Virus record (IMG/VR): IMGVR_UViG_3300020166_000063
Location: 1-34,041 of that record
Reading direction: 5' to 3' (one strand)
DNA length: 34,041 nt
Source of the DNA: a virus
Both the position numbers and the translations under genes were made by a program. The notes below the pieces were generated by a model. It was not told the DNA's origin and did not search any database. It was given only the letters and a program-made list of their open reading frames with translations. Positions 1,955-29,487 of the stretch are shown here, in pieces. Position 1 is the stretch's first letter, and each line of letters opens with the position of its first letter.

Positions 1955-3097
1955 ATGAGTAATATATCTATATGGGCAGGAACATCTACATTTGGTTCTG
2001 GCCAAACACCATTCGGATTTTATGACAGTGACTCGGACTTTAGTACTGATGCTGATAAAGTAGCAAGATTTTGTGCTCAAAGACTCGGTTACCCGTTAAT
2101 GGACGTTGAACTACAATCAGGATCTTTTTATGCCTGCTTTGAAGAAGCAGTAACTGTATACGGAAACGAAGTCTTTCAGTATAAGATTAGAGAAAACTAT
2201 CTATCATTTGAAGGAGCACCAACAGGTAGTACAGCAAATAATCAACTAGTTGAACCTAACATTAATCGTTTTGTACAAATAGCAAAAAACTACGGTACAG
2301 AAGCAGGTGTGGGAGGTAATGTAACTAAATACTCCGGCTCACTTGAACTAACAGGATCAGTACAGGAATACGATTTAGATTCATGGGCTACCGATAACGC
2401 AATAGAAGGTGGAATAGAAATTAGACGTGTATTCTATGAAGCACCACCAGCAATAACGAGATATTTTGATCCTTATGCAGGAACAGGAACAGGTATTCAA
2501 TCACTAATGGACTCATTTGGATTCGGACAATTCAGCCCAGGTATTAACTTTATGCTAATGCCAGCATCTTACGACGTTATGAAGATGCAAGCAATAGAGT
2601 TTAATGATCAAATTAGGAGATCTACATTTTCATTTGAATTAGTTAATAACAAATTAAAGTTATTTCCTATCCCACAAACAACCGGGAAGTTATTCTTTGA
2701 ATACATGAAGCTAACAGATAAATCTCAATTAAATTTTGATAATTCAACAGATAGAATTACAACAGTATCAGAAGTGCCCTACTCCAACCCTAAATACGAA
2801 CAAATTAATAGTGTAGGAAGGCAGTGGATATTTCAATTTACTTTAGCATTGGCAAAAGAAATGCTAGGGTACATTAGAGGTAAATATGCAACAGTACCGG
2901 TACCAGGCTCGGAAGCAACATTGAATCAAGCAGACTTATTAACTGATGCAAGATCTGAAAAAACAGAATTACTAACTAATTTAAGAGCTATGTTAGAAGA
3001 AGCATCAAGAGGAGCACAAATGGAAGCACAAGCACAAGAATCTGATTTCCTTAGAGCTACTTTAGCACAAGTACCAATGACAATACACGTAGGATAA
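1955..3097 (+). CDS. Neck / head-to-tail connector protein, gp13-like
   Basis: A 380-residue structural protein placed immediately before recognisable gp14- and gp15-like genes. Residues 33-80, with ADKVARFCAQRLGYPLMDVE followed by an acidic-aromatic helix (FYACFEEAVTVYGNEVFQY), resemble the N-terminal helix-LG-P-V-E(L) pattern I associate with gp13-type neck proteins of marine T4-like phages. A GS/T-rich insert (about 85-150) follows. The C-terminal third is alpha-helical and charged, rich in Ala, Glu and Gln, ending MTIHVG. In T4, gp13 and gp14 complete the packaged head and provide the site for tail joining. The stop overlaps the next start as TAATG, implying coupled translation with the 99-residue gene. 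The family call rests on pattern memory and synteny; another connector role is possible. Confidence 0.62.
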   Translation: MSNISIWAGTSTFGSGQTPFGFYDSDSDFSTDADKVARFCAQRLGYPLMDVELQSGSFYACFEEAVTVYGNEVFQYKIRENYLSFEGAPTGSTANNQLVEPNINRFVQIAKNYGTEAGVGGNVTKYSGSLELTGSVQEYDLDSWATDNAIEGGIEIRRVFYEAPPAITRYFDPYAGTGTGIQSLMDSFGFGQFSPGINFMLMPASYDVMKMQAIEFNDQIRRSTFSFELVNNKLKLFPIPQTTGKLFFEYMKLTDKSQLNFDNSTDRITTVSEVPYSNPKYEQINSVGRQWIFQFTLALAKEMLGYIRGKYATVPVPGSEATLNQADLLTDARSEKTELLTNLRAMLEEASRGAQMEAQAQESDFLRATLAQVPMTIHVG

Positions 3098-3396
3098 TGA
3101 AGTTATTGAGAATAATAGAACAGATACAGTTTAAAACCTACGAAGGAATGATAAGAGTTCTTTATGAAGATGGTGAAAGCGAAGATTTAGCTGAACTCTT
3201 AAGAGCATTACCAGGAGTTACAACAGTAACTAATGCTGGACAGTCTGAAGAAATGAGCACAATGACATTTAAAATCAAAGTAATCACTCAGAAAGAGGGA
3301 GAAGAAGCATTTGAACTATTTAAGAACAATGCTATGGATAAATACCCAGGTATAATAAAAATTGAAACAGCGAAAGAAACAATACAAGAGAAGTAA
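3097..3396 (+). CDS. Small conserved-looking protein of unknown function in neck operon
   Basis: A 99-residue protein I cannot assign. Its visible pattern is strand (MIRVLYED), helix (LAELLRALPGV), strand (TTVTNAG), strand (STMTFKIKVIT), helix (EEAFELFKNNAM) and strand (IIKIETA). This beta-alpha-beta-beta-alpha-beta order suggests a ferredoxin-like fold. The phrase LLRALPGV is typical of the first helix-turn in such folds. It is coupled on both sides: its ATG overlaps the gp13-like stop (TAATG) and its own stop overlaps the gp14-like ATG (TAATG). It is therefore likely made in proportion to the neck proteins and may be a minor virion protein or assembly factor. No signal peptide or membrane segment is seen. 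Confidence 0.75.
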   Translation: MKLLRIIEQIQFKTYEGMIRVLYEDGESEDLAELLRALPGVTTVTNAGQSEEMSTMTFKIKVITQKEGEEAFELFKNNAMDKYPGIIKIETAKETIQEK

Positions 3397-3883: not shown

Positions 3884-5113
3884 ATGGCAAAAAGAAACAG
3901 ACCAACACCAAAATCACAGAAAGAAATAGCTAATAACATAATTAGCTCACAAGCGTCTGGACCTAAGCCAACTATTGCTGACAATACAAAAAGAGAACTA
4001 CAAAGATCTGTAAAAAACGATACTACCAAAAGACTTCATATTGGTTTAAGGGATATAGATGAAACAATAGTATACTACTTTAACAATGTTATTAAACCCT
4101 CCGTAATACAGAATGGCTCTCGTAAGAACGTACCGGTATTATACGGTTCTCCGGAAAGATGGAAAGCAGTCCAGAAAGACGGCTTTTACCGAGATAAGAA
4201 TGGTAAGATTCAAGCCCCTTTACTTATGTTTAAACGTGATAGCGTTGAAAAAAATAGAGGTTTAGGTAATAAGGTAGATCCAAACAACCCATTAACGTAC
4301 GGTATCTTTAAAAAAAGCTTTTCTAGAAAGAATATATACGATAGATTTAGCGTACTAACCAACCGAAGCAAATCAGATGAGTTATACGGAGTAATAGTAC
4401 CGGACTACGTTACATTAACATACTCTTGTTTAATATTTACAGACTACATTGAACAAATGAATAAGATAATAGAAGCAATAAACTATGCTTCTGACTCTTA
4501 CTGGGGAGATGATGAAAAATTTAGCTTTAGAGCTACAATAGACTCATATACTACAGCTACAGAACTAACACAGGGAGAAGATAGAGCTGTAAAAACCACT
4601 TTTACTATACAAATGCACGGATATATCATATCAGACTCAATACAATCACATATTGCGGGGATGAATAAGTACTACTCAAAATCTAGTGTGAACTTTAAAC
4701 TAGAAACAGCAGGCACATTAGAAGAATTAACAGCAAAAGCAGGAACATCTCAAGCAGAAACAACAACAAGGTTTATTGATTCAGCAGGAGGTGGTATACC
4801 GGCACAATCAACACTGACAGCCGACGAAATAGCTTACATAAGTACAAACTTAACAGTCACCACAGTAGGATCGTTGGATAACAACTGTATTACCTTTAAT
4901 AACTTAGCATTCGTATCAGCACCAAATGGGTTTATACCAGGAGAAGAAAGATTCTCACTATATATTAACGGACAACATATAGCACCAGAAGATTACACAG
5001 TAGCAGAGGTAGGTAGCAATATAGAGGTATGTGTTGACGTAACTAATATAGGGTATAATATAGGATCAGGAGATCAAATTATTTTCACAGGTAAAATAAA
5101 GAATGTAATATAA
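3884..5113 (+). CDS. Tail terminator / sheath stabiliser, gp15-like, with extra C-terminal domain
   Basis: A 409-residue protein. The core (about 55-255) follows T4 gp15: an N-terminal YYFNNVIKPSVIQNG, the basic VPVLYGSPERW segment (83-93), then LTYSCLIFTDYIEQMNKIIE (178-197), FSFRATIDSYTTATE (213-227), and RAVKTTFTIQMHGYI (234-248). T4 gp15 is a hexamer that ends the tail tube and sheath and contacts the neck. T4 gp15 is about 272 residues. Here a linker rich in Thr/Ala (260-335) leads to a C-terminal domain (336-409) with FSLYINGQHIAPEDYTV and a GDQIIF strand, a module I associate with phage fibre and adhesin proteins. So a tail-completion protein appears to carry a surface module. Its stop overlaps the next ATG (TAATG), coupling it to the small fibre gene. 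Confidence 0.75.
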   Translation: MAKRNRPTPKSQKEIANNIISSQASGPKPTIADNTKRELQRSVKNDTTKRLHIGLRDIDETIVYYFNNVIKPSVIQNGSRKNVPVLYGSPERWKAVQKDGFYRDKNGKIQAPLLMFKRDSVEKNRGLGNKVDPNNPLTYGIFKKSFSRKNIYDRFSVLTNRSKSDELYGVIVPDYVTLTYSCLIFTDYIEQMNKIIEAINYASDSYWGDDEKFSFRATIDSYTTATELTQGEDRAVKTTFTIQMHGYIISDSIQSHIAGMNKYYSKSSVNFKLETAGTLEELTAKAGTSQAETTTRFIDSAGGGIPAQSTLTADEIAYISTNLTVTTVGSLDNNCITFNNLAFVSAPNGFIPGEERFSLYINGQHIAPEDYTVAEVGSNIEVCVDVTNIGYNIGSGDQIIFTGKIKNVI

Positions 5114-5418
5114 TGGCTTTAATACATTGGAAACAGATAGATGGCGATTTAACAGGTTCCAGAGTCCTAACAGGATCTCTAGGAATATCAGGGAGTATAA
5201 ACCTAACAGGTAGTGTTGAACAATCCTCAGGCTCATTTACTTTAAACTTTGATGGAGCATCAGACTATTTTAGTGTTAATGTAGGTGGAGAAGAAAAGTT
5301 AAGAATAAATGAAGAAGGTACCTTGCAAATGAAATCTCAAACATCAACACCTACTGCAGTTTCAGGAGGTTTATTCTACTCAGCTTCAAATGATTTTTTC
5401 TTAGGGTTTAGAGACTAG
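5113..5418 (+). CDS. Small fibre-like virion protein
   Basis: A 101-residue protein rich in Gly, Ser and Thr. It starts MALIHWKQIDGDLTGSRVLT and continues with alternating GSLGISGSINLTGSVEQSSG strands typical of beta-structured phage fibres. The middle (about 37-75) reads as FTLNFDGASDYFSVN followed by EKLRINEEGTLQM, resembling a single repeat of the head-domain module used in larger fibres. It ends NDFFLGFRD. The HWKQI start echoes the NWKK(I/L)IVSGS start of the next two fibre genes, perhaps a shared docking end. It is translationally coupled to the gp15-like gene (TAATG). The exact role is unknown; it could be a short fibre, a trimer cap or a decoration protein. Confidence 0.7.
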   Translation: MALIHWKQIDGDLTGSRVLTGSLGISGSINLTGSVEQSSGSFTLNFDGASDYFSVNVGGEEKLRINEEGTLQMKSQTSTPTAVSGGLFYSASNDFFLGFRD

Positions 5419-5467: not shown

Positions 5468-6595
5468 ATGGCAAATTGGAAAAAGATAATTGTTAGTGGT
5501 TCGCAAGCATTATTAGCGAATGTAAAAGCTGACAATTTAACAGCAGGAACCGTTCTTATAGGCGGAACCGGTGGTTTAATAGAAAATAGTGGGATAACAT
5601 TTGCCACTTCAACATACTCTTTTGGAGCAACTAGTTTAGTTGCAACTGGAGCATCCTCAGCACTAACAGGTTCATTTACAGGCTCCTTTGCAGGTGCACA
5701 TACAGGTGATGGATCCGGTTTAACCGGTATAGCATTAGACATTGATGCTTTAGGTAACACAGGTATGAGTAATACCAGTTTAATAGACGGTGACTTATTT
5801 GTCGTTTCTGATGGCGGAACAGAGAAAAAAATTACCTACGGCCAGTTATATAAGAATATATTTGACGAAGTAGCCGGAGACGTAACAATTTCAGCAACAG
5901 GAGCATCAGTAATTGGAGCAGATACAGTAGAAGGTACAATGTTAAATACAAACGTTGCAGATACCACTACAATTGAAGTTTCTTCAGATACATTATCTGT
6001 ATTAAAAGTTCCTAATGCCTTAACAGCGGGATCTGGTTTAAGTGCTGCAGGTACATTTGACGGTGCTACTGCAAGACAATTTAATGTTGACTCAGGATCA
6101 CTACTTCCTTACATTACAGGATCTACATTTGGTACAGTTACTGGAGACGTAACAATCACAGCAGCAGGATTAGCAACTATTGGAGCAAATAAAGTAGACG
6201 GATCTAAATTAACAGATAGTATTACAATCGCCCAGGATTTAACAGGGGCGGGAGATTTAATTGTAAACGGAGACACAACCACAGTTAATACAGCAAACTT
6301 ACAGGTAGAAGATAAGTTTATATTTGTAAATGCAGGATCAGGATCAGTAGCTCCAGTAGGAGAAGGTGGTATAATTGTAGAATCTGGATCAGCAGGATCT
6401 GGATCAGCATTCTACTTTGATGGAAATGCAGATAGATGGTCACTTGCTAACAACTTAGGTAAAGAATCAACTACAGCAACTCCTGAAGCATATGCAGCAG
6501 TAGTAGTTGATATAGATGCATCAATGTCGTCAGGTATATATGAACAAGTAGGTAACATTAAACATGAAGGTGGAGATATCTACATATGGGCATAA
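5468..6595 (+). CDS. Short tail-fibre-like protein
   Basis: A 375-residue protein of the beta-rich Gly/Ser/Thr/Ala type. The N-terminus MANWKKIIVSGSQALLANVK matches that of the 2259-residue fibre downstream (MPNWKKLIVSGSDANLNSIV), suggesting a common attachment end. Inside are fibre phrases: LTGSFTGSFAGAHTGDGSGL (about 71-90), two GDVTI(S/T)A-type repeats (about 138 and 220), and a segment NTANLQVEDKFIFVNAGSGS (about 276-295) followed by FYFDGNADRWSLANN. A close analogue of that last segment lies in the partial fibre gene around 31771-31950. It ends GGDIYIWA with tandem stops TAA TAG. No catalytic motif is visible. It is probably a virion fibre or a fibre subunit. Confidence 0.78.
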   Translation: MANWKKIIVSGSQALLANVKADNLTAGTVLIGGTGGLIENSGITFATSTYSFGATSLVATGASSALTGSFTGSFAGAHTGDGSGLTGIALDIDALGNTGMSNTSLIDGDLFVVSDGGTEKKITYGQLYKNIFDEVAGDVTISATGASVIGADTVEGTMLNTNVADTTTIEVSSDTLSVLKVPNALTAGSGLSAAGTFDGATARQFNVDSGSLLPYITGSTFGTVTGDVTITAAGLATIGANKVDGSKLTDSITIAQDLTGAGDLIVNGDTTTVNTANLQVEDKFIFVNAGSGSVAPVGEGGIIVESGSAGSGSAFYFDGNADRWSLANNLGKESTTATPEAYAAVVVDIDASMSSGIYEQVGNIKHEGGDIYIWA

Positions 6596-6640: not shown

Positions 6641-6826
6641 ATGGGTATATTATCAAAGATTACCAAACCAAAAGGTTCTCAAGAATTAACCATAGAAGAT
6701 CTTAAATTTCTTCTATCTAAAATGAGAATTGCAACATACACTGGAGAAGAATTTGAACACTTTTACAATGTCTGGGTAAAGCTAACAGAAACATTACAGT
6801 ATTTAGAAAGCAAAAAGGGGACTTAA
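6641..6826 (+). CDS. Small helical protein of unknown function between fibre genes
   Basis: A 61-residue protein. MGILSKITKPKGSQELTIED leads into two helices: LKFLLSKMRIATYTGEEFE and FYNVWVKLTETLQYLESK. The LxFLLxKxxxATYxGxEFExFYxVWxKL pattern recalls a family of very short phage proteins with no known role. It sits between two fibre genes, so a chaperone or regulatory role for fibre assembly is conceivable but unproven. The preceding 45-base gap is A/T-rich with a TTAATTAA palindrome (6613-6620) and neither a Shine-Dalgarno nor the TATTTAT motif. The stop codon falls in the loop of a hairpin (6809-6839). Confidence 0.72.
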   Translation: MGILSKITKPKGSQELTIEDLKFLLSKMRIATYTGEEFEHFYNVWVKLTETLQYLESKKGT

Positions 6827-6911: not shown

Positions 6912-9900
6912 ATGCCAAACTGGAAAAAACTCATAGTTAGCGGGTCTGATGCTAACTTAAATTCGATTGTAGTCAACTCAACTGGTTCTTTTGGAACTCA
7001 AGTTAGGATAGGGACAGACACCTATACAGGAGGATCCTTAATAGTATCTCAAGGTTCTACAAACCAAAGAGTCGCAAGACTCGGTAATATAGAAGTAGTT
7101 AACAATGCTACCGGTGGAACCTGGACAGGGCAAGCAATACATGCAGAAGGTTCAAACAGAACCCTTAGATTCACAGCAGGTGGATCTTTAAATGCATCTG
7201 ATACATCAGCACATAAATTTAAAGGCTACTTAAATTCTTCAAGAACTGTAGATTATAGTACATTTAATGTAAATGGAGGATATAATCAAAATACATTAGC
7301 CGCTGATTATAGCTATATTAAGATAGACGGATCTGTAAACCAAACAGGAACATCCCAATCAGGGTCAATAACAGGTATTGATTATAACCCAAGTCTTATT
7401 AACGCTTCATCCGCAACCCACTATGCTTTTCGTGCTAGATCGGGAAATATTGTATTAGATTCAGGTAGCGTTGGTATCGGGACTACTGATCCAGCAGAGA
7501 AGTTACACGTTTATAATGCAGGTAATTCGTTTATAAAAATTGACTCTGACGCTACATCTCCATATATGGCTGGAGTTGAGTTTGTAAGAAGTTCAATTAA
7601 TGGAGGTCGTATTTACAATGACGGTGGAGCGGTTCAAGTAAAGCTAGAAAGTTACTTTGGGTATGATTCAGTAAACCCAACACGTGGAGGCTTTATGTTT
7701 AAGACAGCCCCGGTAACTTCAGGAACTTTAGTTGATGCTGTTAGAATAGATGCTAGAGGCTATGTAGGTATTGGAACTGCTACTCCAAGCGAAAAACTTG
7801 AAGTTAACGGAAATATAAGCGGTAGCGGTGACTTATACTTAGGAGGAGATAACTTTTACCTTGGAGGTAGTGAAACAAGAATTAGAACATATTCTAGCTA
7901 CTTAGGATTTTTTGCATCTGGAGGATCTGCTAAAAACATTAAAGTAGGAGGATTAGGAGTTACTAATGATTTCTCAGATAGCTTCCCTACAAATGGAATA
8001 TACTCAAAAGGAGATATAGTAACAAGCGGATCAGTTACAATACATACAGTAGATAATGCAACATCTGATACAGATAAATTTTTAGTTTCAGATGCAGGCA
8101 CTGTAAAATATAGATCAGGCTCTCAAGTACTAGCTGATATAGGAGGAATATCATCTGCTGATATATCTGATATGGTAACCAAGAGTACTAATCAGACAAT
8201 AACTGGAGCAAAAACATTTTCTAATAAAATAACACTAGACGACGGATCCGGAGCAAGCCCAGAAATAGATTTTATAAACGGCGATAATCAGAAATTTACA
8301 GTAAGCGCTGGTGATAATAACCGTACACTTAATATAACCCATGAAAGTAACGGCGGCAACGATGTATCGATAATATCTACTCAGAATGACTTTAGAGACG
8401 CTGTAATAAAAGTAGGAGGAACTTCTACTTACGGTAAAAATATACAACTATCAGGTTCTTTCACATTTCTACCACAAGCACAAACTGGTAGTATACGGAC
8501 AACTTCAAACCAAACGTTAGAACTAGTACCCAACGGAACCGGAACAGTAAACATAGGAGATACTTCTAACGGAACAGTAATGTATCACTACTCTCAGGAA
8601 AACGATGGAGTGCATACATATAGAACTCACGGAGGTGATTATTCTTCAACATATACAACCGCTGCATCAGGATCTAGATTCTTTCAAGATCTTACAAGTA
8701 ACGGTAATATCTATGCTCGTGGCTTTTCTGGAGTAAATATAGGACAGGGAAGTAATAATAGTAGGTACGGACTTTGGGGTTACCCACACGGAACAGGAGC
8801 AGGAGACGGAAACCTTTATATGGCACCTAGAAATATAAATTCTTCAAACGGATCATTTATAAAATTAGGACAAAGAGACTCAGATGTAGCAGCAGATAAG
8901 GGAACAGTTGTAATAACTGCTGGAGATCCAACCTACCATAGTATGACAGGTGATATAGTATTCAACTATAGTTCATCTAGAGTAATGAAATTAGAGGGAG
9001 ATACTGGATACGTCGGAATGGGTGTTAATGGTCCTTTAGCACCTCTACACATATCAGGTGGTGCAGAATGGAGAACGCTTTACTTAGAAGCTCAAAACCC
9101 AGCTGTGTACTTTAAAGATTCGGGCTCTGTACCGGGATACCATGTTGGATTAAACAGCGACCACCTCTATGTACTTAGAGATAGCGACGGTAACGGAGAC
9201 TATAATAACATATTAGCCCACTTTAATTCATCTGAGTTCAAAGTATACGGAGATCAGACAGTAGCAGGAAACTTAACAGTGGATGGCACCGTAACAGCAC
9301 AGGAATTTCACACTGAATTTGTATCTTCTAGTATAATATACGAATCAGGTTCAACTAAGTTTGGAGATACAGCAGACGATAAACATAACTTTACAGGTTC
9401 ATTAATTGTAAATAACGCAGCCTCTAATACTAATAGTATATTTAAAGGTATAAGGTCAAGTACGTACTACTTTGACTTAGGGCAGTATGCTGATATAGAC
9501 CATAGAGTTAACGGTTCAGTCTTTGCAAACACAATTAGAAATACATCTACTACACAAACTACACCAGTGCTTAGACTTGGACACAGTAACGATGGAGCAC
9601 ATATTACAACATACGATACTAATGAAGATTTAATAATAAATCCTAACGGCTCAGGAGATGTAAAGTTAATTGGGAATACAGAAGTTACAGGATCAATTGA
9701 TTCAAGTGGTGATATTAGATCCGAAAGAGATTTAGAAGTAGGATATAATAACGCCAATTACGACCAACAATTAATACTACATAACGGTCTTAATAAAAAT
9801 TACATTTTTACATCAAATTCAGCATCCATAAGCAATGCTCAATTAACAATTCAAGGAGGTAATTACACACATGCCGTTAATTTTAAAGATTCATATTCTA

Positions 9901-12900
9901 ATCAAGACAATTATGCAACGTTATCAGGAGGATACACAGGAGATTCTAAATTAATACTATTTAACTCTTCTTCCCAATTAACAACAACAATAAGTACAGC
10001 AACTTCATCACTTAACCATACAGATGTATATGGGAATATAAGATTTACTGGCACCACTGCTAATACTATAAACTCTATAGTAAATTTAACATTAAATGCA
10101 GACAGTGATTCAAACAGTGGAGACGGGTATAGAAATATAATATTTAAAAATAGAGGAACAGAGACAGCTAGAATAGATCAAGACGGTAAATTAGGTCTAG
10201 GAACAGATAGCCCAGAAGCTAAGTTAGAAATTGTAGATGCAACACCTACATTAATACTAAGAGATAACCGTAACTTAAATGTTGGAGCTTGGGACAATGT
10301 AGCAATGAGCAGAATACAGTTTAGCACATCAGATACTACATCACCAGGAGCAAGAGCTTTAACAGAGATTGAAACATATAGTGGCACTGGAGCAGCATCA
10401 GGCCCTGAAGGAGAATTAAGATTCAAGACTTCTGAAATTACTGATGCATCTCCCCAAACTAGAATGACTATTTCTGCAGAAGGTTATGTAGGTATAGGAA
10501 CTGCTCCTTACACAGGACTAACAGTAGCAGGAAATATAACTACCTCTGCTAACTCATACATAATATCAACAAGGAAACTTGCAGCTCGAGACGGAAACGG
10601 ACTCCAAGTAGTAAATGATGGAGGAGAGGGTATTAATGTAAACGATGATAATAGTGTAACACTTACAAACTACGGATCAGGTACACACACAGGTACATTA
10701 GCAAAATCATTAGGTGTTGATTCTTCAGGTAATATTATAGAAACAGTACCTACTGCTGGAGGTATAGACGGAACAGGTATATCTCAATCACTAGCAATAT
10801 GGTCAGATACAGATACTGTAACAGCAACTAGCAACCTTAAGTACCTTAGCAACAAGGTAAGACTTAGTAATGCCGGATACGATACATTAGAATTAATAAG
10901 CTCAGTAGCAGAACACAGTTCCATGAAATTCCTTTCCGGCTCTGTAGGCTTAGGTAGAATTGGATGGCACAACTCAGGATACCATTTCCCAGGATCAAAT
11001 TCACAAGCGTTGATGCTATTGGGTAACAAAGGTATTAACTTCGGTATACCGTCAACAGGGTCTATTTCAATAATGTCAGGATCAGCTGATGTAATTATGG
11101 CGCTAAGCTCTAGTGTAGGTATAGGAAAAACACCAGTCTATAAATTAGATGTTAACGGCATAATAAGATCAGGAGATGCATCAGCAACATCAAACTATGT
11201 TTTAGTTGAAGGCGCAGACAATAATGATACATACACAGTATTTAAAGGTAAACGTAAATACCCAAGAATAGATCTTACAGATACTTATGGCGCCACTGAT
11301 ACCACCTTTCAGATTTGGAATTTAGGAGGTCAATTAAGGTTCGGAACCTCAGCAGGAGGATCAAATACTGCCGCTTTCTTTATTAACGGAAGTGGAGCAG
11401 CACCCGTTACATTTAATACATCTGTAGGGATAGGTCACCACAGTTTAACTGGCACAAGCTACAAACTACACCTATCATCTTCTAATGCTAATCATATAAG
11501 ATTAGAAAGAGACAACCACGATTCATATAGAATTGCATTATCCCACTCTGCAGGATTAGGTTTTTATAATTTAACTGACTCTAGGGATGAATTAAGATTT
11601 AGAGGAAATGGAGATATACTAATACCTAGTGGAGCATTAGGAATCGGTAACACTACACCAACACATAAATTACACATAGTAGATGGAACTGATAGTTTAA
11701 AGTATGGAGCAGATATAGGTAATGGTTTCGATGGAATAAAACTTACCGGAGGAGCTCCAGGAATAGAGTTTGTAGGAAACGGAGATGACTTTATAGTAGG
11801 TAAGATTACCGCAGGATTAGCATTCTTTAATAGCACTGACTCTAACTATAAAATGATTCTTGATGATGATGGTAATCTTGGTATTGGTACAGGAACATCT
11901 GCTATTTCTGAAAAACTAGAAGTTACGGGTAACGTTAAAGCAACTAGGGTAATATCAGATACTATAAGAGATACTAATAATAATGGACACTTGGTTACTG
12001 CTGTTACGAATGCTTCTAACACTACAACAATTGTAGGTAATGCAGCTACAGCGAACACATTAACCTTAGGTGTTAAAGATACAGGTGTTGTAACTACCCA
12101 AGGAAGCGTAGGAATCGGGACTACTAATCCGGATTCTTTATTACATGTCTCAGCAGATGTAACTGGAGCAAATACAGGCACAATAACAATAGAGGGTAGA
12201 CCTACTGGTTTCTTAGGTGATGACATAGCAACAATTGATTTTCATAATAACGGTAGTAAACGTGCTGATATTAGAATGGAAAGAGGTAACGCTGCTGATG
12301 ATTCTCAACTTGTTTTTTCTACATCTGATACGGGAACTCTTAATGATGCTTTAATAATAAACGAAATAGGTAACGTCGGAATAGGAACACCAAATCCAGA
12401 TAGTTTATTACAGTTATATAAAGCAACAGGTAATACGACATTAAAAATTACATCAAACCAAGAAAACGCTTACCTTTACATTGACTCTAATCAAGACGGA
12501 GCTGGAGGAGAAGAAAGTGGTATAATTCTTGCAGACAATGGTACTGCAAAATGGGAACTATTTAAAACAAGTGGTAACGATTATTCAATCCACGATTATA
12601 CACGTGGTGCTTCTTCATTTAAGATACAAGATAATGGAAATATGTTCCTTATGGCCAACGGAGGAAATGTTGGTATAGGAACAGAAACATTAAGCACTGT
12701 TGGAGGTAATGCTAAACTAACTATAAGTGCTGGAAACAGTCCTGTTTCAATAGTTAACGGTACCAATGATGGAATGTACCTTAGAAGATTTGACGATGAA
12801 GATGGGCATTATCAATTACAAACAACTGTAGGTAGTGGCAATTCAGGAACATTATCATTACAGACTTACGGAGGAGATTTAGGAGTTGGAACAAGAACAC

Positions 12901-21646: not shown

Positions 21647-22399
21647 ATGGCGTTTTCAAGAGGACCAACAGTTATAAAAGATGGGATTGTATTCAGTATT
21701 GATCCAGCAAGTACAAAAAGCTACCCAGGAGCAACTAAGGTTAATGATCTTACTAGATACGGTGGTACTACACCAGAATTTACACCCGCTGGGACGCTAT
21801 CAGGAGGTACAACAGTAACTGTACCTACCACAGGGTCGACAACTAAAGTATTCGGTTTTGATGGGACTAACGATAGTTTACTTTTCCCAAATAATAACTC
21901 TGCTGCACCTCTACCCGTTAACTTTACATCATCAGCATTTTCAATAGAATCTTGGGTAAAACTCCAACAAACAGGTTCAAATAACATAGCAGTTATAGTC
22001 ACTAGAGGAAATCCATTATGTGATGGTTGCGACGGTGGATTTAATACCATGTTTACCAATAGTTCTACAATACAGGTAAGATTCGACGCAACAGGAGGAA
22101 GTAATATAGCAAGTGTTTCTTATAACTCTTCTTCATATGGGGTTAGAGATGATAAATTCCACCACATTGTAGGGTTAAGAGATGGAACAAATATCAAACT
22201 TTACCTAGACGGGGTAGAAGTAGCAACAAATAATAACGACAATAACGTAAACGTTAATGTAGAAGACCACGTATACATATCAGGATGGAGTTCATATAGA
22301 GGAGAAATGGAAGTAGGCCCAGTAAGGATATATAATAAAGCACTATCAGCTACTGAAGTAAGTATTAATTATAACGCTCAAAAACATAGATTTATATAA
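21647..22399 (+). CDS. LamG / concanavalin-A-like lectin-domain protein (array member 1)
   Basis: A 250-residue protein, the simplest member of a six-gene lectin array. The N-terminus (GPTVIKDGIVFSIDPASTKS) is the widespread phage form in which a GLV-x-x-x-D-x-x-x-x-K-S-Y-P-G phrase precedes a LamG domain; it lacks the GYDTGYP phrase of the other five. The LamG-like jelly roll spans about 65-250: FGFDGTNDSLLFP, FSIESWVKLQQTGSN, FHHIVGLRDGTNIKLYLDGV, and the closing VGPVRIYNKALSATEV, ending NAQKHRFI. Such folds usually bind sugars or proteins. A local CDGCDGG may be a loop with paired Cys. It starts ten bases after the 1181-residue fibre and its stop overlaps the next gene (TAATG). It is likely a virion-surface binding protein. 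Confidence 0.85.
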   Translation: MAFSRGPTVIKDGIVFSIDPASTKSYPGATKVNDLTRYGGTTPEFTPAGTLSGGTTVTVPTTGSTTKVFGFDGTNDSLLFPNNNSAAPLPVNFTSSAFSIESWVKLQQTGSNNIAVIVTRGNPLCDGCDGGFNTMFTNSSTIQVRFDATGGSNIASVSYNSSSYGVRDDKFHHIVGLRDGTNIKLYLDGVEVATNNNDNNVNVNVEDHVYISGWSSYRGEMEVGPVRIYNKALSATEVSINYNAQKHRFI

Positions 22400-23580
22400 T
22401 GAATACAGGACCGAAAATAGATACAGATGCTTTAGTGTTTGGATATGATACTGGATACCCACTAGTTTCTACAAGCAGTGATTCATATAAATTTAACCTA
22501 GGTGAGCCAACTACCAATAAGTTAGATGGTGATATACTAGGTACCGGAAACGGAGCAAGTTTAGACTCAGATGACTTTGGTACATACATACAGTTAGCAA
22601 ATATTACTTCCAGTTATTCTAGATTCCAACTACCCAGTATAACGGTAGTATCTAATGAAGTATACACCTGGTCATTTGAATTATATTCAACAGAAACTAT
22701 AACACAGAGTGGTAATAAGTACTACTTTGATACAAATGAATATTCTGATCAATTTTCAACTAGTAACGATTTATCAAGAGTAGGATTTACAAACATAAGA
22801 CCTTCTTCTATACCGGCAAATGAATGGACTAAGTTTAGTTTAACAGTTACTATGAAAGATAATTTAACTGGGGCCTATACATATGACTTCTTTAATATGC
22901 TATATCCTCATTTTCAAAATAAAAAAATATACTATAGAAATATGCAGTTTGAAACTAAACCGCATAATACACCCTATGCAGGACAGGGTATTACAAGGTC
23001 TGTAGAAAACTCATTAATTGATTTAAAAAGAAACACAACAATAAACGTATCAGATGTATCTTTTGATACTGATGCACAAATGTTTTTTGATGGTACTGAT
23101 GACCATATTACAATAAATAACCCCGGTATATCAATTGATAGGTTTACTATTGAAATGGTACTTAAACCAGATAGCTATTCAAATAGCCCAATGTTAATTA
23201 ACCCAAGTAGTACAGGTATTGATCAGTATGTAAGAATATGGAGTAATGGTCAAATTGGAGGTGTATTTGTAGCAGCAGCGGATACATCAGGAGATTCATG
23301 TAAAAGCACAACTCAATTAGACACAACAGAATACACACACTTTGTTCTAACAAAAACTCAAAGTGCAATAAAGGTGTATATAAATGGTGAACTAGAAACA
23401 ACCGTTACACCGACAGTAACCGCAGCACCCTGGACAGGAACTTGGGATATAGGACAAAGAGCAAATAATACTTTTAACTACGATGGTGAATTACCGATAT
23501 TAAAAGTGTATAAAAATGAGATGTCAGTAGAAACAGTAAAAAGTAATTTTAAAGGACTTAGAAGTAGGTTTAATATTTAG
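22399..23580 (+). CDS. LamG-like lectin-domain protein with GYDTGYP module (array member 2)
   Basis: A 393-residue protein in three parts. Residues 10-40 hold ALVFGYDTGYPLVSTSSDSY then FNLGEPTTN, the module shared by five array members. Residues about 60-195 form a CBM-like beta-sandwich ending IYYRNMQFETKPHNTPYAGQ. Residues about 215-393 form the LamG domain: AQMFFDGTDDHITIN, FTIEMVLKPDSYS, THFVLTKTQSAIKVYINGEL and GELPILKVYKNEMSVETV, ending RSRFNI. The middle part resembles carbohydrate-binding modules found in front of LamG domains in phage proteins. So two sugar-binding folds may lie in one chain. The start overlaps the stop of member 1 (TAATG). It is most similar to member 3. No catalytic motif is visible. 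Confidence 0.85.
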   Translation: MNTGPKIDTDALVFGYDTGYPLVSTSSDSYKFNLGEPTTNKLDGDILGTGNGASLDSDDFGTYIQLANITSSYSRFQLPSITVVSNEVYTWSFELYSTETITQSGNKYYFDTNEYSDQFSTSNDLSRVGFTNIRPSSIPANEWTKFSLTVTMKDNLTGAYTYDFFNMLYPHFQNKKIYYRNMQFETKPHNTPYAGQGITRSVENSLIDLKRNTTINVSDVSFDTDAQMFFDGTDDHITINNPGISIDRFTIEMVLKPDSYSNSPMLINPSSTGIDQYVRIWSNGQIGGVFVAAADTSGDSCKSTTQLDTTEYTHFVLTKTQSAIKVYINGELETTVTPTVTAAPWTGTWDIGQRANNTFNYDGELPILKVYKNEMSVETVKSNFKGLRSRFNI

Positions 23581-23590
23581 ATATTTATAT
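23581..23590 (+). promoter_or_regulatory. TATTTAT motif between lectin genes 2 and 3
   Basis: ATATTTATAT lies between the stop ending at 23580 and the ATG at 23594, preceded by G. The gap is only 13 bases, so a transcript from this point would have almost no leader. It may act as a promoter, or merely be the A/T-rich start context. Confidence 0.35.
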
Positions 23591-23593
23591 TAA

Positions 23594-24781
23594 ATGGGAA
23601 TAAATAGAGGAGCAAATATAGTTAGAGAAGGTCTTGTCTTTGGGTATGATACAGGTTATCCCCTAGTGTCGTCTAGTTTTGATTTATATAGATTTAACTT
23701 AGGTGAACCTACTACTAATCAAGCAAACACAGATACAAAAAGAACAATAGCTGGACACAGTGTTGGCGCCTACGGCCATGTAGTAGAGGTATCATCTGCA
23801 CCTGAAAAAGGAGTTGGATGGAAAAAGATTAATATTACAACACATGGAACTAATAATAGAATTGCACAATTTCCATACATTACCCATGTAGCTAACGCAA
23901 CTAACACCTATAGTGTTGAATATGATTTTAACACATTATCAGGGTATTACTGGAAATTAGACGGCTCAACCGGTACTCTAGGAAGTAATGTTAAAGACAC
24001 CGGGCACATACATTCACTAACACACACAAGAACAAGTAACGGAAGTCAAGCTTTATTTTTAATGAATAACAATGTCAATAGAGCATCAATAGACGATACT
24101 ATATACTTTAAAAATTATCAAGTTGAAACTAAACCACATAATTCACCTTTTACAGAAACCATAAGATCAACATCAGGTTCATTAATAGATATAACAAGAA
24201 CAACTGATATAGATTTATCTGATGTAACATTTGATAATAATGCACAAATGACTTTTGACGGTTCGGATGACTTTATAGAATTAGATGTAAACTTATCAGA
24301 TCTTGTAGGAACAGCCCCTACAGGAATAACTTTTGAATTTGTAGCAAAAGCAGATAACCTAACAAACCCAATAGGAATCAGCGGGGACTATACAGGTCCA
24401 GCAGGAACAGGATTTGGAATTAAAAGGTCTTCTTCTAATAATAAACTAGAATTTAGAGTTTACGCAACTGGTGGAATTCCAAGATCAACAACAGACATAC
24501 CCACAGATAGTTATTTTTACGGAGTTTGTATTTGGGATGGCACTAGCACAGGACAGCTTAGAATATACTTTAACGGAGTACTGGAAACAACAGACACTTC
24601 AGCAGGTACGACTTGGAACCATGGAAACGGTGATTTGAGAATAGGAGATAATTACGGAAGCATGGGTTCCCCTGGAGAATGGCAAGGAGAAATACCAGTA
24701 TATAGAATTTACGATAGAGCACTATCATCAGCAGAAGTAACACAGAACTTTAACACCTTAAAGGATAGATTTAACATATAA
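23594..24781 (+). CDS. LamG-like lectin-domain protein with GYDTGYP module (array member 3)
   Basis: A 395-residue protein. The N-terminus GLVFGYDTGYPLVSSSFDLY then FNLGEPTTN (about 14-41) is nearly identical to member 2. The middle (about 55-190) is a CBM-like sandwich whose sequence differs from member 2 but ends alike: IYFKNYQVETKPHNSPFTET. The LamG domain (about 205-395) has AQMTFDGSDDFIELDVNLSD, ITFEFVAKADNLT, YFYGVCIWDGTSTGQLRIYF and GEIPVYRIYDRALSSAEV, ending LKDRFNI. The conserved ends with a divergent middle suggest module swapping or fast change in the binding domain. Its stop overlaps the next ATG (TAATG). Confidence 0.85.
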   Translation: MGINRGANIVREGLVFGYDTGYPLVSSSFDLYRFNLGEPTTNQANTDTKRTIAGHSVGAYGHVVEVSSAPEKGVGWKKINITTHGTNNRIAQFPYITHVANATNTYSVEYDFNTLSGYYWKLDGSTGTLGSNVKDTGHIHSLTHTRTSNGSQALFLMNNNVNRASIDDTIYFKNYQVETKPHNSPFTETIRSTSGSLIDITRTTDIDLSDVTFDNNAQMTFDGSDDFIELDVNLSDLVGTAPTGITFEFVAKADNLTNPIGISGDYTGPAGTGFGIKRSSSNNKLEFRVYATGGIPRSTTDIPTDSYFYGVCIWDGTSTGQLRIYFNGVLETTDTSAGTTWNHGNGDLRIGDNYGSMGSPGEWQGEIPVYRIYDRALSSAEVTQNFNTLKDRFNI

Positions 24782-26508
24782 TGGCAACAGGAGGAGGACC
24801 AAATAATATAACTAAAGGATTAGTAGCAGGATACGATACAGGGTATCCAGCATCTACTGGATCTACTCATGAAACTAAGTACTATAAAGGACAGTTTCTA
24901 CATGAAAACGTAATACCCGAAACACAGACATTATCTAGATATAACAACCCAGGTTTTTCCGGAACAAACACGAATACAGGTAAATTACACCCAATACATA
25001 AAACACCAATTTGGAAGTTAACCCACATAGCTGATTCAGGAAAAGAATCAAGATTATCAAGCGGGGAAGGATTTGGATGTTACCATAGTTCTGTAACTCA
25101 GTATAATGCAGGAAGTAAGTACATAGCTTCAATTTCATTCAAAGCAGATTCAGCAAGCCCGGTAGTAACAGGAAGTTTTAGTAACGGTTACTCCAATATT
25201 AACGGATGGAACGCTCACGGTACATCAAAAACAATGGTACCTGAAGGAGATGGTTGGTATAGAATTTATACATTCTACAACAATACAACAACTGCATACT
25301 CAGCAGATGGCACCACAAATTTATCAGGTAGATATGCAGGTAATACCTATACCACAATTGATCTACCTGCTGGAATAAGTGTAGTAACGCATTCGGTTGA
25401 TACTGCTCAATACCTTGGCGGAGACGCTAATTATAGAGGTACTTACCAATTAACCAATACAGTACAAAACGATTATAATAATGTAGGTGCATCTATTTTA
25501 GATTATGGATTAGATACTTCGTATACAAAACCAGTATTTAACCCAGTATGGAACTTTCCAACCAGTAGTGCTAGTGATATAAACCAAACAATATACTTAA
25601 GAGTAAATATGCCTTCAGCAGGTTCAGTAAGACTTAGATCATACGTATATTCAGCTACCCCTTATTTAACGGACAGTAAATATTGGAAAATATACTTTGA
25701 TTCTGCAGGAGTATCAACCGGTAAAGAAATGACTACATACTGGAGCGCACCAATGAAATCACGAGTAGTAACCACAGATGTTACAAATAGCAATAATAAG
25801 AATTATAAATTTAAAAAATACGGCACAAATGTAAGACATTCGACTGATTCCTTAGTCAATTTACCTTCCCTAGAAATTGGCTCCTCCCAGAGTTCCCTTT
25901 CATTTACAGGAGCAAGTACAGTGCATGTTAGTTATGATAGCGATAGACTCCCGTATTTTGACGGTACGAATGACCGTATTGAACTTAACAAAATAAGTGG
26001 TGTAAGTAGTGGTTCAACACATGTAACTTTTATTGCATGGATTAAATCTGATGGTGCTTTAACAAACGCAAGAAGAGGTCTTTTCTATTCTTATGCTCAT
26101 CCAGAATTAGATGAAGGTGGGATAGCCCTCTACGGTACAAACACCGGAGCATTAGCAGTTTCAACAACTGATACAGAGCTTGATACTCGACAAGTTTCTT
26201 CATCTAACTTTAACATATATGATGGAACATGGAAATGTGTAGGATTTAGATTATCAACACAAGCCATAACAGTATTTCACTTTAACAGTAACGGTAACTT
26301 AGTAACATCTTCACTATTAGAAAACGGTACACGAACAGTTAAATCAGGGTATAATATAATGAAAGACTTAATAATAGGAGCTGAATATGATAACTCAAAT
26401 ACATATTGGCAAGGCAGTATAGACGGAGTAAGATTTTTTGAAAAAACAGAAAAAACAGATAAAGATTTAATTACGTATTATAACTCAACTAAAAAAAGAT
26501 TCACATAA
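24781..26508 (+). CDS. LamG-like lectin-domain protein with GYDTGYP module (array member 4, longest)
   Basis: At 575 residues this is the largest of the array. The N-terminal phrase is VAGYDTGYPASTGSTHETKY then YKGQFLHENV, keeping GYDTGYP but losing the FNxGEPT part. A long middle (about 40-385) seems to hold more than one CBM-like sandwich: ISFKADSASPVVTGSFSNGY, GDGWYRIYTFYNNTTTAYSA, ITVVTHSVDTAQYLG-type strands and VNMPSAGSVRLRSYVYSATP. The LamG domain (about 389-575) includes LPYFDGTNDRIELNKISGVS, VTFIAWIKSDGA, WKCVGFRLSTQAITVFHFN and GSIDGVRFFEKTEKTDKDLI, ending TKKRFT. The extra length may be a second carbohydrate-binding unit inserted into the shared plan. It starts and ends with TAATG overlaps. 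Binding target unknown. Confidence 0.82.
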   Translation: MATGGGPNNITKGLVAGYDTGYPASTGSTHETKYYKGQFLHENVIPETQTLSRYNNPGFSGTNTNTGKLHPIHKTPIWKLTHIADSGKESRLSSGEGFGCYHSSVTQYNAGSKYIASISFKADSASPVVTGSFSNGYSNINGWNAHGTSKTMVPEGDGWYRIYTFYNNTTTAYSADGTTNLSGRYAGNTYTTIDLPAGISVVTHSVDTAQYLGGDANYRGTYQLTNTVQNDYNNVGASILDYGLDTSYTKPVFNPVWNFPTSSASDINQTIYLRVNMPSAGSVRLRSYVYSATPYLTDSKYWKIYFDSAGVSTGKEMTTYWSAPMKSRVVTTDVTNSNNKNYKFKKYGTNVRHSTDSLVNLPSLEIGSSQSSLSFTGASTVHVSYDSDRLPYFDGTNDRIELNKISGVSSGSTHVTFIAWIKSDGALTNARRGLFYSYAHPELDEGGIALYGTNTGALAVSTTDTELDTRQVSSSNFNIYDGTWKCVGFRLSTQAITVFHFNSNGNLVTSSLLENGTRTVKSGYNIMKDLIIGAEYDNSNTYWQGSIDGVRFFEKTEKTDKDLITYYNSTKKRFT

Positions 26509-27854
26509 TGTTTATAGGTCCAAACACAAACGCAAGCAAAGTTAGCTGGGGATACGATACAGGATACCCAATAGTACAGTCAAATTTAGATAGCTATAGA
26601 CTTAATGCTGGAGAACCAACTTATAATTATGTTTCAGATAATAATAACCCATTCGGTTCAGTATCAGACTGGACAGAAGCAGGATGGGCTGGAGATGTAG
26701 AATGGAGTCAAGCAGAAAATGCAATCGAGTTAACAGCAACAAATGGATGGCATAGCATATATTACGAATTAGGAAACGATGTAATATCGGAAAATATGTA
26801 CGTATCATTTGAATATAAACTCAAATCACAACAAACCTCGGGTATATTTGGATTCGTACTTAACGGTACTCATTTAGGTAGTTACACCTCAAGTTTAGGT
26901 AATTTCACATCACCATCTCTTACAGAATGGAAAACATACACAGGATCGTTCACCGGTCACAATAGTACCAACGGAACTAGAATATGTATAGGACTAAGAG
27001 GCACAGACAATGGCGGTCTTACAGACACAATTTATATTAAAAAACTACAGGTCGAAAAAAATAATCACCACACACCTTTTGCAGGCTTAGCTTTTGCATA
27101 TCCACCTAATGGACATGGATCTAGAGTAGCATATACAGGTAGTCAAGGTAGCGGAACAGGTCAATTTAAACCAACTTCATTAAAAAATATTGTACAGCGA
27201 TACACTTACCCTGCTTTTTCTGGAACAGGATTCCCAACAATGGTTAGCAGTAATGATCAAGTATTAAAGTGGAAGATAAACGTAGAAGATGTAACCTTTA
27301 ATTCAAATGCACAAATGGAATTTGATGGTACTGATGATAAAATGAAAGGAAGCTGGCCAGCATTATTAAATATAGATAATACAGACAAGCCAAGAACCTG
27401 GGAAGTGGTATTTAAAACAGATACACTTACTGGAACACATTGTATATTTGGACATAAAGCAAGCGATGGTTGTTCCCACTACTGTAACGGCGGTATTCGA
27501 CAAAGTAGTAACAGAGTGCAATTTGTATGGTATGATAATGCTAGCTATCAATTTCTACAAGGAACAACAACACTTACAACAACATCGTATTACCATGTAG
27601 TAGCAGTATGGGACGAATCAACACTATACCCTACCCTTTATGTAAACGGAGAAGAAGTAGGATCTTGGGGCTCTGCTTCTAATCTAAACTATTCATCAGG
27701 TATGCAACAGTACAATGTAGGGTTTAACTCTAAATCAGGAGGGCAGCATTATTTTGATGGAGTTATTCCGATAGTTAAATTTTATAGTAACAGATTGACA
27801 GCAACAGAAATAAAACAAAATTTTAAAGGAATTAAAAAAAGATTTAATATTTAA
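26508..27854 (+). CDS. LamG-like lectin-domain protein with GYDTGYP module (array member 5)
   Basis: A 448-residue protein. The N-terminus reads VSWGYDTGYPIVQSNLDSYR then LNAGEPTYN (about 11-40). The CBM-like middle (about 45-200) includes AIELTATNGWHSIYYELGND, MYVSFEYKLKSQQTSGIFG and IYIKKLQVEKNNHHTPFAGL. A linker rich in Gly/Ser precedes the LamG domain (about 262-448): AQMEFDGTDDKMKGSWPALL, RTWEVVFKTDTLTGTHCIFG, DGCSHYCNGGIRQSS, YYHVVAVWDESTLYPTLYVN and GVIPIVKFYSNRLTATEI, ending KKRFNI. The Cys residues around DGCSHYC are unusual for the array and could form a disulfide or metal site at a binding loop. The start overlaps the previous stop (TAATG); a motif-bearing gap follows. Confidence 0.84.
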   Translation: MFIGPNTNASKVSWGYDTGYPIVQSNLDSYRLNAGEPTYNYVSDNNNPFGSVSDWTEAGWAGDVEWSQAENAIELTATNGWHSIYYELGNDVISENMYVSFEYKLKSQQTSGIFGFVLNGTHLGSYTSSLGNFTSPSLTEWKTYTGSFTGHNSTNGTRICIGLRGTDNGGLTDTIYIKKLQVEKNNHHTPFAGLAFAYPPNGHGSRVAYTGSQGSGTGQFKPTSLKNIVQRYTYPAFSGTGFPTMVSSNDQVLKWKINVEDVTFNSNAQMEFDGTDDKMKGSWPALLNIDNTDKPRTWEVVFKTDTLTGTHCIFGHKASDGCSHYCNGGIRQSSNRVQFVWYDNASYQFLQGTTTLTTTSYYHVVAVWDESTLYPTLYVNGEEVGSWGSASNLNYSSGMQQYNVGFNSKSGGQHYFDGVIPIVKFYSNRLTATEIKQNFKGIKKRFNI

Positions 27855-27869
27855 TATTTATAATTAAAA
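27854..27869 (+). promoter_or_regulatory. Candidate late-promoter motif upstream of the 114-residue gene
   Basis: ATATTTATAATTAAAA begins at the end of array member 5 and lies 26 bases before the ATG at 27880. It has the TATTTAT core and is followed by A-rich sequence without a Shine-Dalgarno. Confidence 0.42.
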
Positions 27870-27879
27870 CACAATAACA

Positions 27880-28224
27880 ATGAGTAGATTTCCAAACAGA
27901 CGCTGGTTAGTAGTACCAGCAACAGACATAGAAACTATAGATTTCAATCAGGTTTTAGAACATTCAGCGGAAGGTCTAAGATACTCTATAGATAACACAA
28001 AAACCTTTGTAAAGTACGAAGTTAATGAAATAACCGCATCATATTCAACAATAGGTATGGATGCTGAAACAGGAGAAGAAATTTCAATTTTACACGAAGC
28101 AGGTGTATACGGTAGACCGTCTTTTTATTTAGACAGTTACTCTGAATATACACATAGTGAGATACTAGCTTTACTGTCAACAGATGAATGGACTGATCAA
28201 GATGTATTAGATTCACCATCATAA
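27880..28224 (+). CDS. Small conserved-looking protein of unknown function inside the lectin array
   Basis: A 114-residue acidic protein unrelated to its neighbours. MSRFPNRRWLVVPATDIETI and IDFNQVLEHSAEGLRYSIDN lead into KTFVKYEVNEITASYST, and the C-terminus reads SEYTHSEILALLSTDEWTDQ. I recall similar short proteins (RRWLVxP, FNQVLE, TKTFVKYE, T-H-x-E-I-L-x-x-L) near fibre genes of other marine phages, with no known role. It is not beta-repeat rich and has no signal or membrane segment, so a chaperone or assembly factor for the adhesins is more attractive than a fibre component. It has its own candidate promoter and lies nine bases before the last lectin gene, probably sharing its transcript. 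Confidence 0.75.
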   Translation: MSRFPNRRWLVVPATDIETIDFNQVLEHSAEGLRYSIDNTKTFVKYEVNEITASYSTIGMDAETGEEISILHEAGVYGRPSFYLDSYSEYTHSEILALLSTDEWTDQDVLDSPS

Positions 28225-28233
28225 ATTAAATAT

Positions 28234-29487
28234 ATGGCTTCTCACTTAGGACCAAATACAATTGAAGAAGGGTTAGTAGTTGGCTATGATACCGGCTACC
28301 CGTTAGTGAGTACTTCTAGAGATGTCTTTAAATATAATAAAGGTGAACCAACTGAAAATTTAGTAGGTAATTCAACCTTTATTGGAACATCCGGAACACA
28401 AACTCAAGGAGTTACTCCTGCTAATTGGGTATTTAGTGGAGAAACAGCATCAACTGGATTCCAATTTTATAATTCCGACACATCTCCTATACCGTTAAAG
28501 TTCCCAAACGAAGGTGCAGTTATCACTACCGGTCCAGGAACGTCAAATAGGAGAATTTATTTTAGAAGAGAAGACTTACTTGGTAATACTACTTATAGTA
28601 TTTCTTGCTGGATGTATTTTAGAACAGGGTTTAGCAGTAGTTGGTCAAAATTTCAATACGATTCATCTGGTACAGGTCTAGGTGGTGGATACTTCGACAG
28701 TTTCTCCAGTTACGCTTCAACAAATGGGTATGTACTAAATGAGTGGTTCTTATGGAAAGGTACTCTAACTACAGAAGCTACTACGGCTAAGTGTTATTGG
28801 GGACCGGTAGTTAGTAATGGTGTTAATGTATTAGTAGGAATGCAAAGAATGCAAGTAGAGAAAAAAGGACATATAACACCATTTACAAAAGGCACAAGAT
28901 CAGTATCCGGATCTTTGATAGATTTAAAAAGAGTAAAAGATATAAACATAAGTAATGTAAGTTTTGATAGTAATGCACAATTATCTTTTGATGGAACAAA
29001 TGATTCTGTACAAATAGCTGATTCGAACGATTTAGATCTAACATCAAACCTGTCTTTTGAGTTTATAGTTAAAGCAGATTCATCCCAAAGCAACCCTTAC
29101 CCGAGGTTACTAGATAAAAGTGTTTACTTAGTACATCTTAGTGTGTCATCACCATTTTCTATCGCACAAAATATAACAACATCAGACGGGTTGAGACAGG
29201 TATCGGTAGGAGGCGCATTTGCATCAGATAAATGGACTCATATAGTTACATCATACGATGGACAAAACGGTAGAATATATGTTAATGGAAGTTTAGTAGC
29301 AACAAATAGCTGGAGTACATCGTTGCCCTGTAATACAAACAGTACAGCATTAAAAATAGGAGGAGATGGAGGAACAAATAGACCGCTCAATGGGGAGTTA
29401 CCCATAGCTAAGATTTATAACAAAGTATTAACTGCAGAAGAAGTATTAAATAGTTTTAATAGTTTACGACATAGATTTGAATTGTAA
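28234..29487 (+). CDS. LamG-like lectin-domain protein with GYDTGYP module (array member 6)
   Basis: A 417-residue protein. The N-terminus is GLVVGYDTGYPLVSTSRDVF then YNKGEPTENLV (about 14-42). The CBM-like middle (about 50-225) contains ANWVFSGETASTGFQFYNSD, TYSISCWMYFRTGFSSSW, and ends VGMQRMQVEKKGHITPFTKG. The LamG domain (about 243-417) has AQLSFDGTNDSVQIADSNDL, LSFEFIVKADSSQS, KWTHIVTSYDGQNGRIYVNG and GELPIAKIYNKVLTAEEV, ending RHRFEL. The LamG part is the closest to a textbook consensus in the array. It is separated from members 1-5 by the 114-residue gene. The start has AAATTAAATATG context and no Shine-Dalgarno. It is likely another virion-surface binding protein. Confidence 0.85.
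   Translation: MASHLGPNTIEEGLVVGYDTGYPLVSTSRDVFKYNKGEPTENLVGNSTFIGTSGTQTQGVTPANWVFSGETASTGFQFYNSDTSPIPLKFPNEGAVITTGPGTSNRRIYFRREDLLGNTTYSISCWMYFRTGFSSSWSKFQYDSSGTGLGGGYFDSFSSYASTNGYVLNEWFLWKGTLTTEATTAKCYWGPVVSNGVNVLVGMQRMQVEKKGHITPFTKGTRSVSGSLIDLKRVKDINISNVSFDSNAQLSFDGTNDSVQIADSNDLDLTSNLSFEFIVKADSSQSNPYPRLLDKSVYLVHLSVSSPFSIAQNITTSDGLRQVSVGGAFASDKWTHIVTSYDGQNGRIYVNGSLVATNSWSTSLPCNTNSTALKIGGDGGTNRPLNGELPIAKIYNKVLTAEEVLNSFNSLRHRFEL

Follow-up and report, generated by a model that had tools for sequence, protein, structure and literature searches.

A tail terminator of gp15 type with a C-terminal module paired to fibre hooks: a candidate fibre-docking socket in aquatic, T4-related phages

T4 and a small number of further phages are known to bear neck fibres. 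As far as the available portions of the cited accounts go, T4 fibritin (wac) binds domain III of gp13 (PMC12270204), the neck fibres of A-1(L) consist of several proteins in series that are anchored on the neck protein gp5 and encoded near each other (PMC10966104), the whiskers of Sf14 are anchored on the adapter gp37 (PMC11821841), and solved whiskers are borne by adaptor- or stopper-linked proteins and not by the terminator (PMC12270204, PMC10966104, PMC11821841, PMC12886913). For the F-ENA spore fibres, the part of the account at hand describes a trimeric DUF4183 domain with a groove that receives a seven-residue N-terminal hook, while the C-terminal DUF4183 domain of the F-anchor is modelled as the base for the first fibre subunit, which is encoded next door (PMC11952670). 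A fibre-docking extension of gp15 was not found described in a literature search of limited extent.

The window, i.e., the whole stretch of DNA analyzed here (34,041 nucleotides), stems from a source record that is a 34-kb fragment. The gene of interest is one uninterrupted open frame of 409 codons (409 aa) on the plus strand (3884-5113). Its upstream neighbours are genes for a major head protein (PHROG 138) and a PhoH-like protein, for a 380-aa protein that matches a head-tail adaptor (PHROG 211), and for 99-aa and 161-aa proteins. The 99-aa protein (3097-3396, family unassigned) is kept between the adaptor-like and 161-aa genes in many relatives. Further along the window, several related proteins form a run of paralogues (21647-29487). 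They begin with a motif of the GYDTGYPLVS type, their C-terminal half is of the (I/V)YxNG type, and they may be lectin-like (concanavalin/LamG).

Pfam and PHROG scans gave no name for the 409-aa protein, PHROG 227 was matched by one of 29 core members, and a 29-row core profile searched against the PDB at E up to 10 returned two rows, both T4 gp15 (E 0.052 and 0.063). For the AlphaFold2 model of the core (residues 1-260, 3884-4663, plus strand), Foldseek ranked T4 gp15 first (4huh_C, E 2.3e-7) and VIA-align gave a Z of 12.8 to the same protein (158 aligned, rmsd 4.2, model positions 48-259); the other leading structural rows were mostly tail terminators and neck proteins. Since the predicted structure matches T4 gp15, we regard the identity of the core (residues ~48-260) as settled at the level of the model, and the sequence-only reading of this DNA, which had proposed a gp15-like tail terminator with an added C-terminal extension, was borne out. 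By its fold, such a core would cap the tail tube and sheath, and by analogy we assume a hexameric state. Two BFVD models, one 398 aa long (E 2e-8) and one 403 aa long (E 5e-6), may represent fused gp15 proteins of other phages.

The extension comprises residues 256-409 plus the stop (4649-5113). Its first part is a flexible linker (residues 261-311, 4664-4816, plus strand) that is rich in Thr and Ala, as the same reading had noted, and has low pLDDT; in the full-length model, predicted disorder (pLDDT < 50) covers residues 254-277 and 292-308. An RF(I/F/Y)D motif within the linker (residues 296-299, 4769-4780, plus strand) is conserved in the alignment, and also in stand-alone copies of the module. 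AlphaFold2 run on the extension alone (34 aligned rows) predicted that residues 312-406 (4817-5101, plus strand) fold into a compact domain of mainly beta structure behind the low-confidence linker, with ten-residue blocks at pLDDT 87-94 and one at 79. The full-length model is consistent with this separate fold, and residues 312-406 are thus predicted to form a separately folding module, which carries FSLYINGQHIAPEDYTV from residue 357 on (4952) and GDQIIF at residue 396 (5069).

What the module resembles was less informative. Foldseek against PDB folds found nothing at E ≤ 0.001; the best rows were pilins and adhesins (E 5.5e-3 to 1e-1) with unrelated enzymes interspersed, PHROG and Pfam scans gave no significant family match, and hence no significant fold or family match points to a binding partner. 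VIA rows of the module to tail and neck complexes (Z for cyanophage A4 6.0, CBA120 TSP4 5.2, LME-1 4.8, T5 4.8, HRP29 4.7, P-SCSP1u 4.5, P74-26 4.5) were given no weight because they fall below the telling level and the chain is mostly unnamed. The earlier label of an adhesin- or fibre-type domain therefore found no backing in significant matches. A similar pattern had also been proposed to close the 2259-aa fibre of the window: the motif letters are indeed present there (residue 2219, 13566), but a shared module was rejected on sequence, as the local Smith-Waterman score of 26 lies below the shuffled mean of 27.7 (1248 of 2000 shuffles reach 26), the hhalign probability is 3.6%, and the module HMM at E up to 10 did not match this fibre end in the window.

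Of the 128 relatives from the first scan, 80 viral loci were fetched. The module is fused to the core in one open frame in 49 of these 80, down to ~50% identity, and in the isolated Flavobacterium phage vB_FspM_immuto (immuto; 51% identity over 404 residues); fusion to gp15 is the commonest arrangement in relatives. It is encoded as a separate downstream ORF in L050, L054, L056, and L058; L052, L087, and L088 have a fused module and one more copy besides; and the module is absent from relatives whose protein ends at 275-330 aa. In dN/dS comparisons of five pairs, the extension showed values of 0.04-0.19 vs. 0.03-0.07 for the core, i.e., it is under purifying selection and evolves faster than the core. 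Together with the open frame kept in 49 of 80 loci and in immuto, this selection rules out a sequencing frameshift; an artefact of this kind or a misjoin, for which no supporting point was found, can be regarded as refuted across the family and has a negligible probability. The module could alternatively be an outward-facing binder (an adhesin for host or surface), as the earlier label would imply, with the fibre attached elsewhere. While the weak pilin and adhesin rows and the faster change of the module are in line with such a role, it is at odds with the lack of any significant match, with a mean column identity of 43% in the module across diverse phages, and with its strict pairing to one hook type (see below), and we consider it highly improbable.

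Several details of this distribution deserve mention. In each of five records the module profile matched a single place; G003 has in addition a second, weak piece that partly overlaps and lies across a stop. A programmed frameshift between the core and the separate module in L050, L054, and L056 is not needed because the separate ORF has its own ATG, closely preceded by a GGAGGT site. The stand-alone second copies (L052 7128-7595, L087 and L088 4001-4468) are located before the hook fibre, and fused and stand-alone copies could possibly make up a heteromeric socket. In immuto (L082, NC_055915.1), whose hook fibre is gp056, the counterpart of the 161-aa gene is present at ~11440-12000 as an unannotated open frame; two short minus-strand ORFs (gp058 and gp059) are annotated there instead, and the annotated start of gp057 seems too early. 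No paper on phage immuto itself was found in the literature; PMC7077304, in the part available, covers other Flavobacterium phages.

In the window, the stop of the 409-aa ORF and the start of a 101-aa fibre protein (5113-5418, plus strand) overlap in TAATG (5111-5115), the last A of TAA being the first of ATG, and in relatives the module gene and the following fibre gene are likewise neighbours that often overlap. This next gene starts with M-A-L-I-x-W-K-Q-I-x-x-x-L or a variant of it (FWEQI in immuto and L042, FKQI in L040, LIQGKQI/LIQSKQI in L091-L096), and in the window this proposed N-terminal hook reads MALIHWKQIDGDL (5113-5151, plus strand). With an anchored hook expression, the hook was recognised in the next gene of all 63 loci that have the module (fused in 56, separate in 4, and fused plus an extra copy in 3; both the window and its near-copy L001 are included) and in none of the 21 that lack it. 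This count left out one-contig duplicates (L081, L084-L086, L090, L097) and T7 (L098), as well as loci with a truncated core (L004, L044, L047, L057, L059, L074) or an unreadable next gene (L060, L095). L031 was counted as hook-present although an in-frame TAG interrupts its hook gene 32 residues from the start (~7215-7320); the frame continues beyond, and the TAG is either a sequencing error or a true break. Among the 790 ORFs considered, the anchored expression fitted three others, the gp15 starts of L059, L087, and L088. A looser expression also matched L076 (MQKNREELKQL), which lacks the module; the anchored one drops this single false positive. Each of four 160-191 kb records contains the hook pattern once, beside the module, and none contains the reversed control. 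A reciprocal scan from the 101-aa fibre yielded 26 new loci, 16 of which contain a gp15 core, in every case with the module; for the remaining 10, the match is confined to the fibre body or C-terminus. The module-hook pairing is thus without exception in the loci counted, and immuto, the cultured relative, carries the same pair. A likeness of the hook motif to the T7 gp17-type N-terminal domain found no backing in hhalign, which against a single T7 sequence gave a probability of 0.1%.

How much of this pairing reflects descent was assessed on the core tree. After dereplication at 95% core identity the hook was present in 38 of 38 loci with the module vs. 0 of 11 without (Fisher p 3e-11, a value that ignores kinship). 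The module changes state three times on the tree: one change lies on the side of the outgroup and two lie within the clade, at L055 and at L062. Each of them coincides with absence of the hook, L055 and L062 having lost both. With only three state changes, kinship explains part of the pairing, and a tree-aware pairs test found one pair on supported branches and had no power. The module and the hook fibre might therefore form one gene block that is inherited together through kinship and operon structure without any binding between the two, in which case the hook would serve another partner, e.g., a fibre chaperone or a baseplate protein. The adjacent, often overlapping genes and the few independent changes on the tree are what co-inheritance would produce. 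It accounts poorly for a hook that is conserved at the N-terminus of otherwise unlike fibres (between 95 and 1806 aa long when complete), for an upstream module that persists as a separate gene, and for the telling natural control L062, in which module and hook are gone while a fibre gene with a like body (LTGSLNISGS repeat) is kept. We consider co-inheritance without binding unlikely. A second alternative, in which the module is a decoration that strengthens the contact of the terminator with the stopper or the sheath and has nothing to do with fibres, has a precedent in the terminator decoration proteins of phage 812, as described in the part of the source available (PMC12886913), but would explain neither the pairing with hook fibres nor the relatives that live without the module; its probability appears low.

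On balance we favour, with reasonable but not strong confidence, the reading that the extension is a modular fibre-docking socket on the tail terminator, receiving the N-terminal hook of the next fibre. The strict co-occurrence, the adjacency, and the fusion and fission of the module are the grounds on which we infer binding between module and hook. The compact beta domain predicted on a flexible linker at the gp15 C-terminus would receive the M-A-L-I-x-W-K-Q-I-x-x-x-L hook of the immediately downstream fibre, so that one standard connector would fasten fibres of very different length at the head-tail junction. The overlap of stop and start codons in the window would keep the socket and the first fibre in step, and if the terminator is a hexamer, its flexible linkers could allow either two trimeric sockets or six single ones. 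If the hook docks on the assembled tail end, the fibre would consequently be a neck fibre; by analogy with the place of gp15 in T4, a neck-whisker placement is plausible. The earlier suggestion that the extension anchors the coupled 101-aa fibre is supported by the same co-occurrence. The module itself is ordinary in being a structural domain of a phage; what sets it apart is that it is attached to the tail terminator and pairs, without exception in the loci counted, with a short signature of the fibre.

A second tag and hook pair follows downstream. The 101-aa fibre ends in the C-terminal tag TPTAVSGGLFYSASNDFFLGFRD (5347-5415, plus strand), a proposed second socket, and the next fibre (375 aa, 5468-6595, plus strand) starts with MANWKKIIVSGS, its proposed second hook being at 5468-5503. 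Of 33 genes ending in a GGxFYSxSNDFFLGF-like tag, 31 were directly followed by an M-x(1-3)-WKK gene, with starts that read M..WKK(I/V)(I/V)VSGS; additional duplicate loci (L001, L083, L099-L114, and L117-L121) were omitted from this count. The pair is also found in L058, L082, and L122. In the remaining two (L123 and L124, near-identical contigs), the WKK gene comes one small ORF later. Another 37 WKK genes follow genes without a strict tag; most of these are the second WKK fibre after a 55-74-aa ORF, and some come after variant tags. A conserved 55-64-aa ORF precedes the second WKK fibre in the window (6641-6826) and in many relatives. The adjacency of tag and WKK gene in these sequences suggests fibres joined in series, i.e., a multi-protein fibre. 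It is conceivable, though we hold it only tentatively, that the head-tail junction bears a serial hook-and-socket fibre with gp15 as its base, whose connector code lets phages swap neck fibre parts. The gp15 module would then take hook 1 (WKQI) of the first fibre, the C-terminal tag of this fibre (GGxFYSxSNDFFLGF) would accept hook 2 (WKKxxVSGS), which the second fibre carries, and the 2259-aa fibre might be taken by a third tag (GDIYIWA).

The phages with the gp15 module are an aquatic family related to T4. If the socket reading is true, the socket-hook rule would predict which fibres of the uncultured members of the group belong to the neck and how these are exchanged, and two small proteins and a single cultured relative would suffice to test the idea.

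Compared with the described systems, the core fold (residues 48-260) is common to T4 gp15 (PDB 4hud, 4huh, 3j2m), whereas the solved T4 protein has 272 residues and lacks the C-terminal module present in the window. If the neck placement is right, the fibres would be fixed at the neck like T4 fibritin, although the base is gp13 there and would be gp15 here; a Fibritin_C domain was found in none of five records searched, which may be incomplete. Serial multi-protein neck fibres would be shared with A-1(L) and Sf14, whose anchors are the neck protein gp5 and the adapter gp37 instead of the proposed gp15. VIA-align of the module to DUF4183/F-ENA gave a Z of 5.8 (rmsd 3.6, 77 aligned), below the telling level, and a DUF4183 profile matched five of 34 module members (best E 0.0045) and not the extension of the window itself; as the likeness in fold and sequence is too weak, kinship with DUF4183 is not claimed. 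In its way of working, F-ENA with its F-anchor is nevertheless the nearest analogy found: to the extent that the account describes it, a C-terminal beta domain on the anchor protein is modelled there as taking a short N-terminal hook, as the gp15 module would do here with a different hook motif, and the serial fibre envisaged here would resemble the anchoring and stacking of F-ENA fibres.
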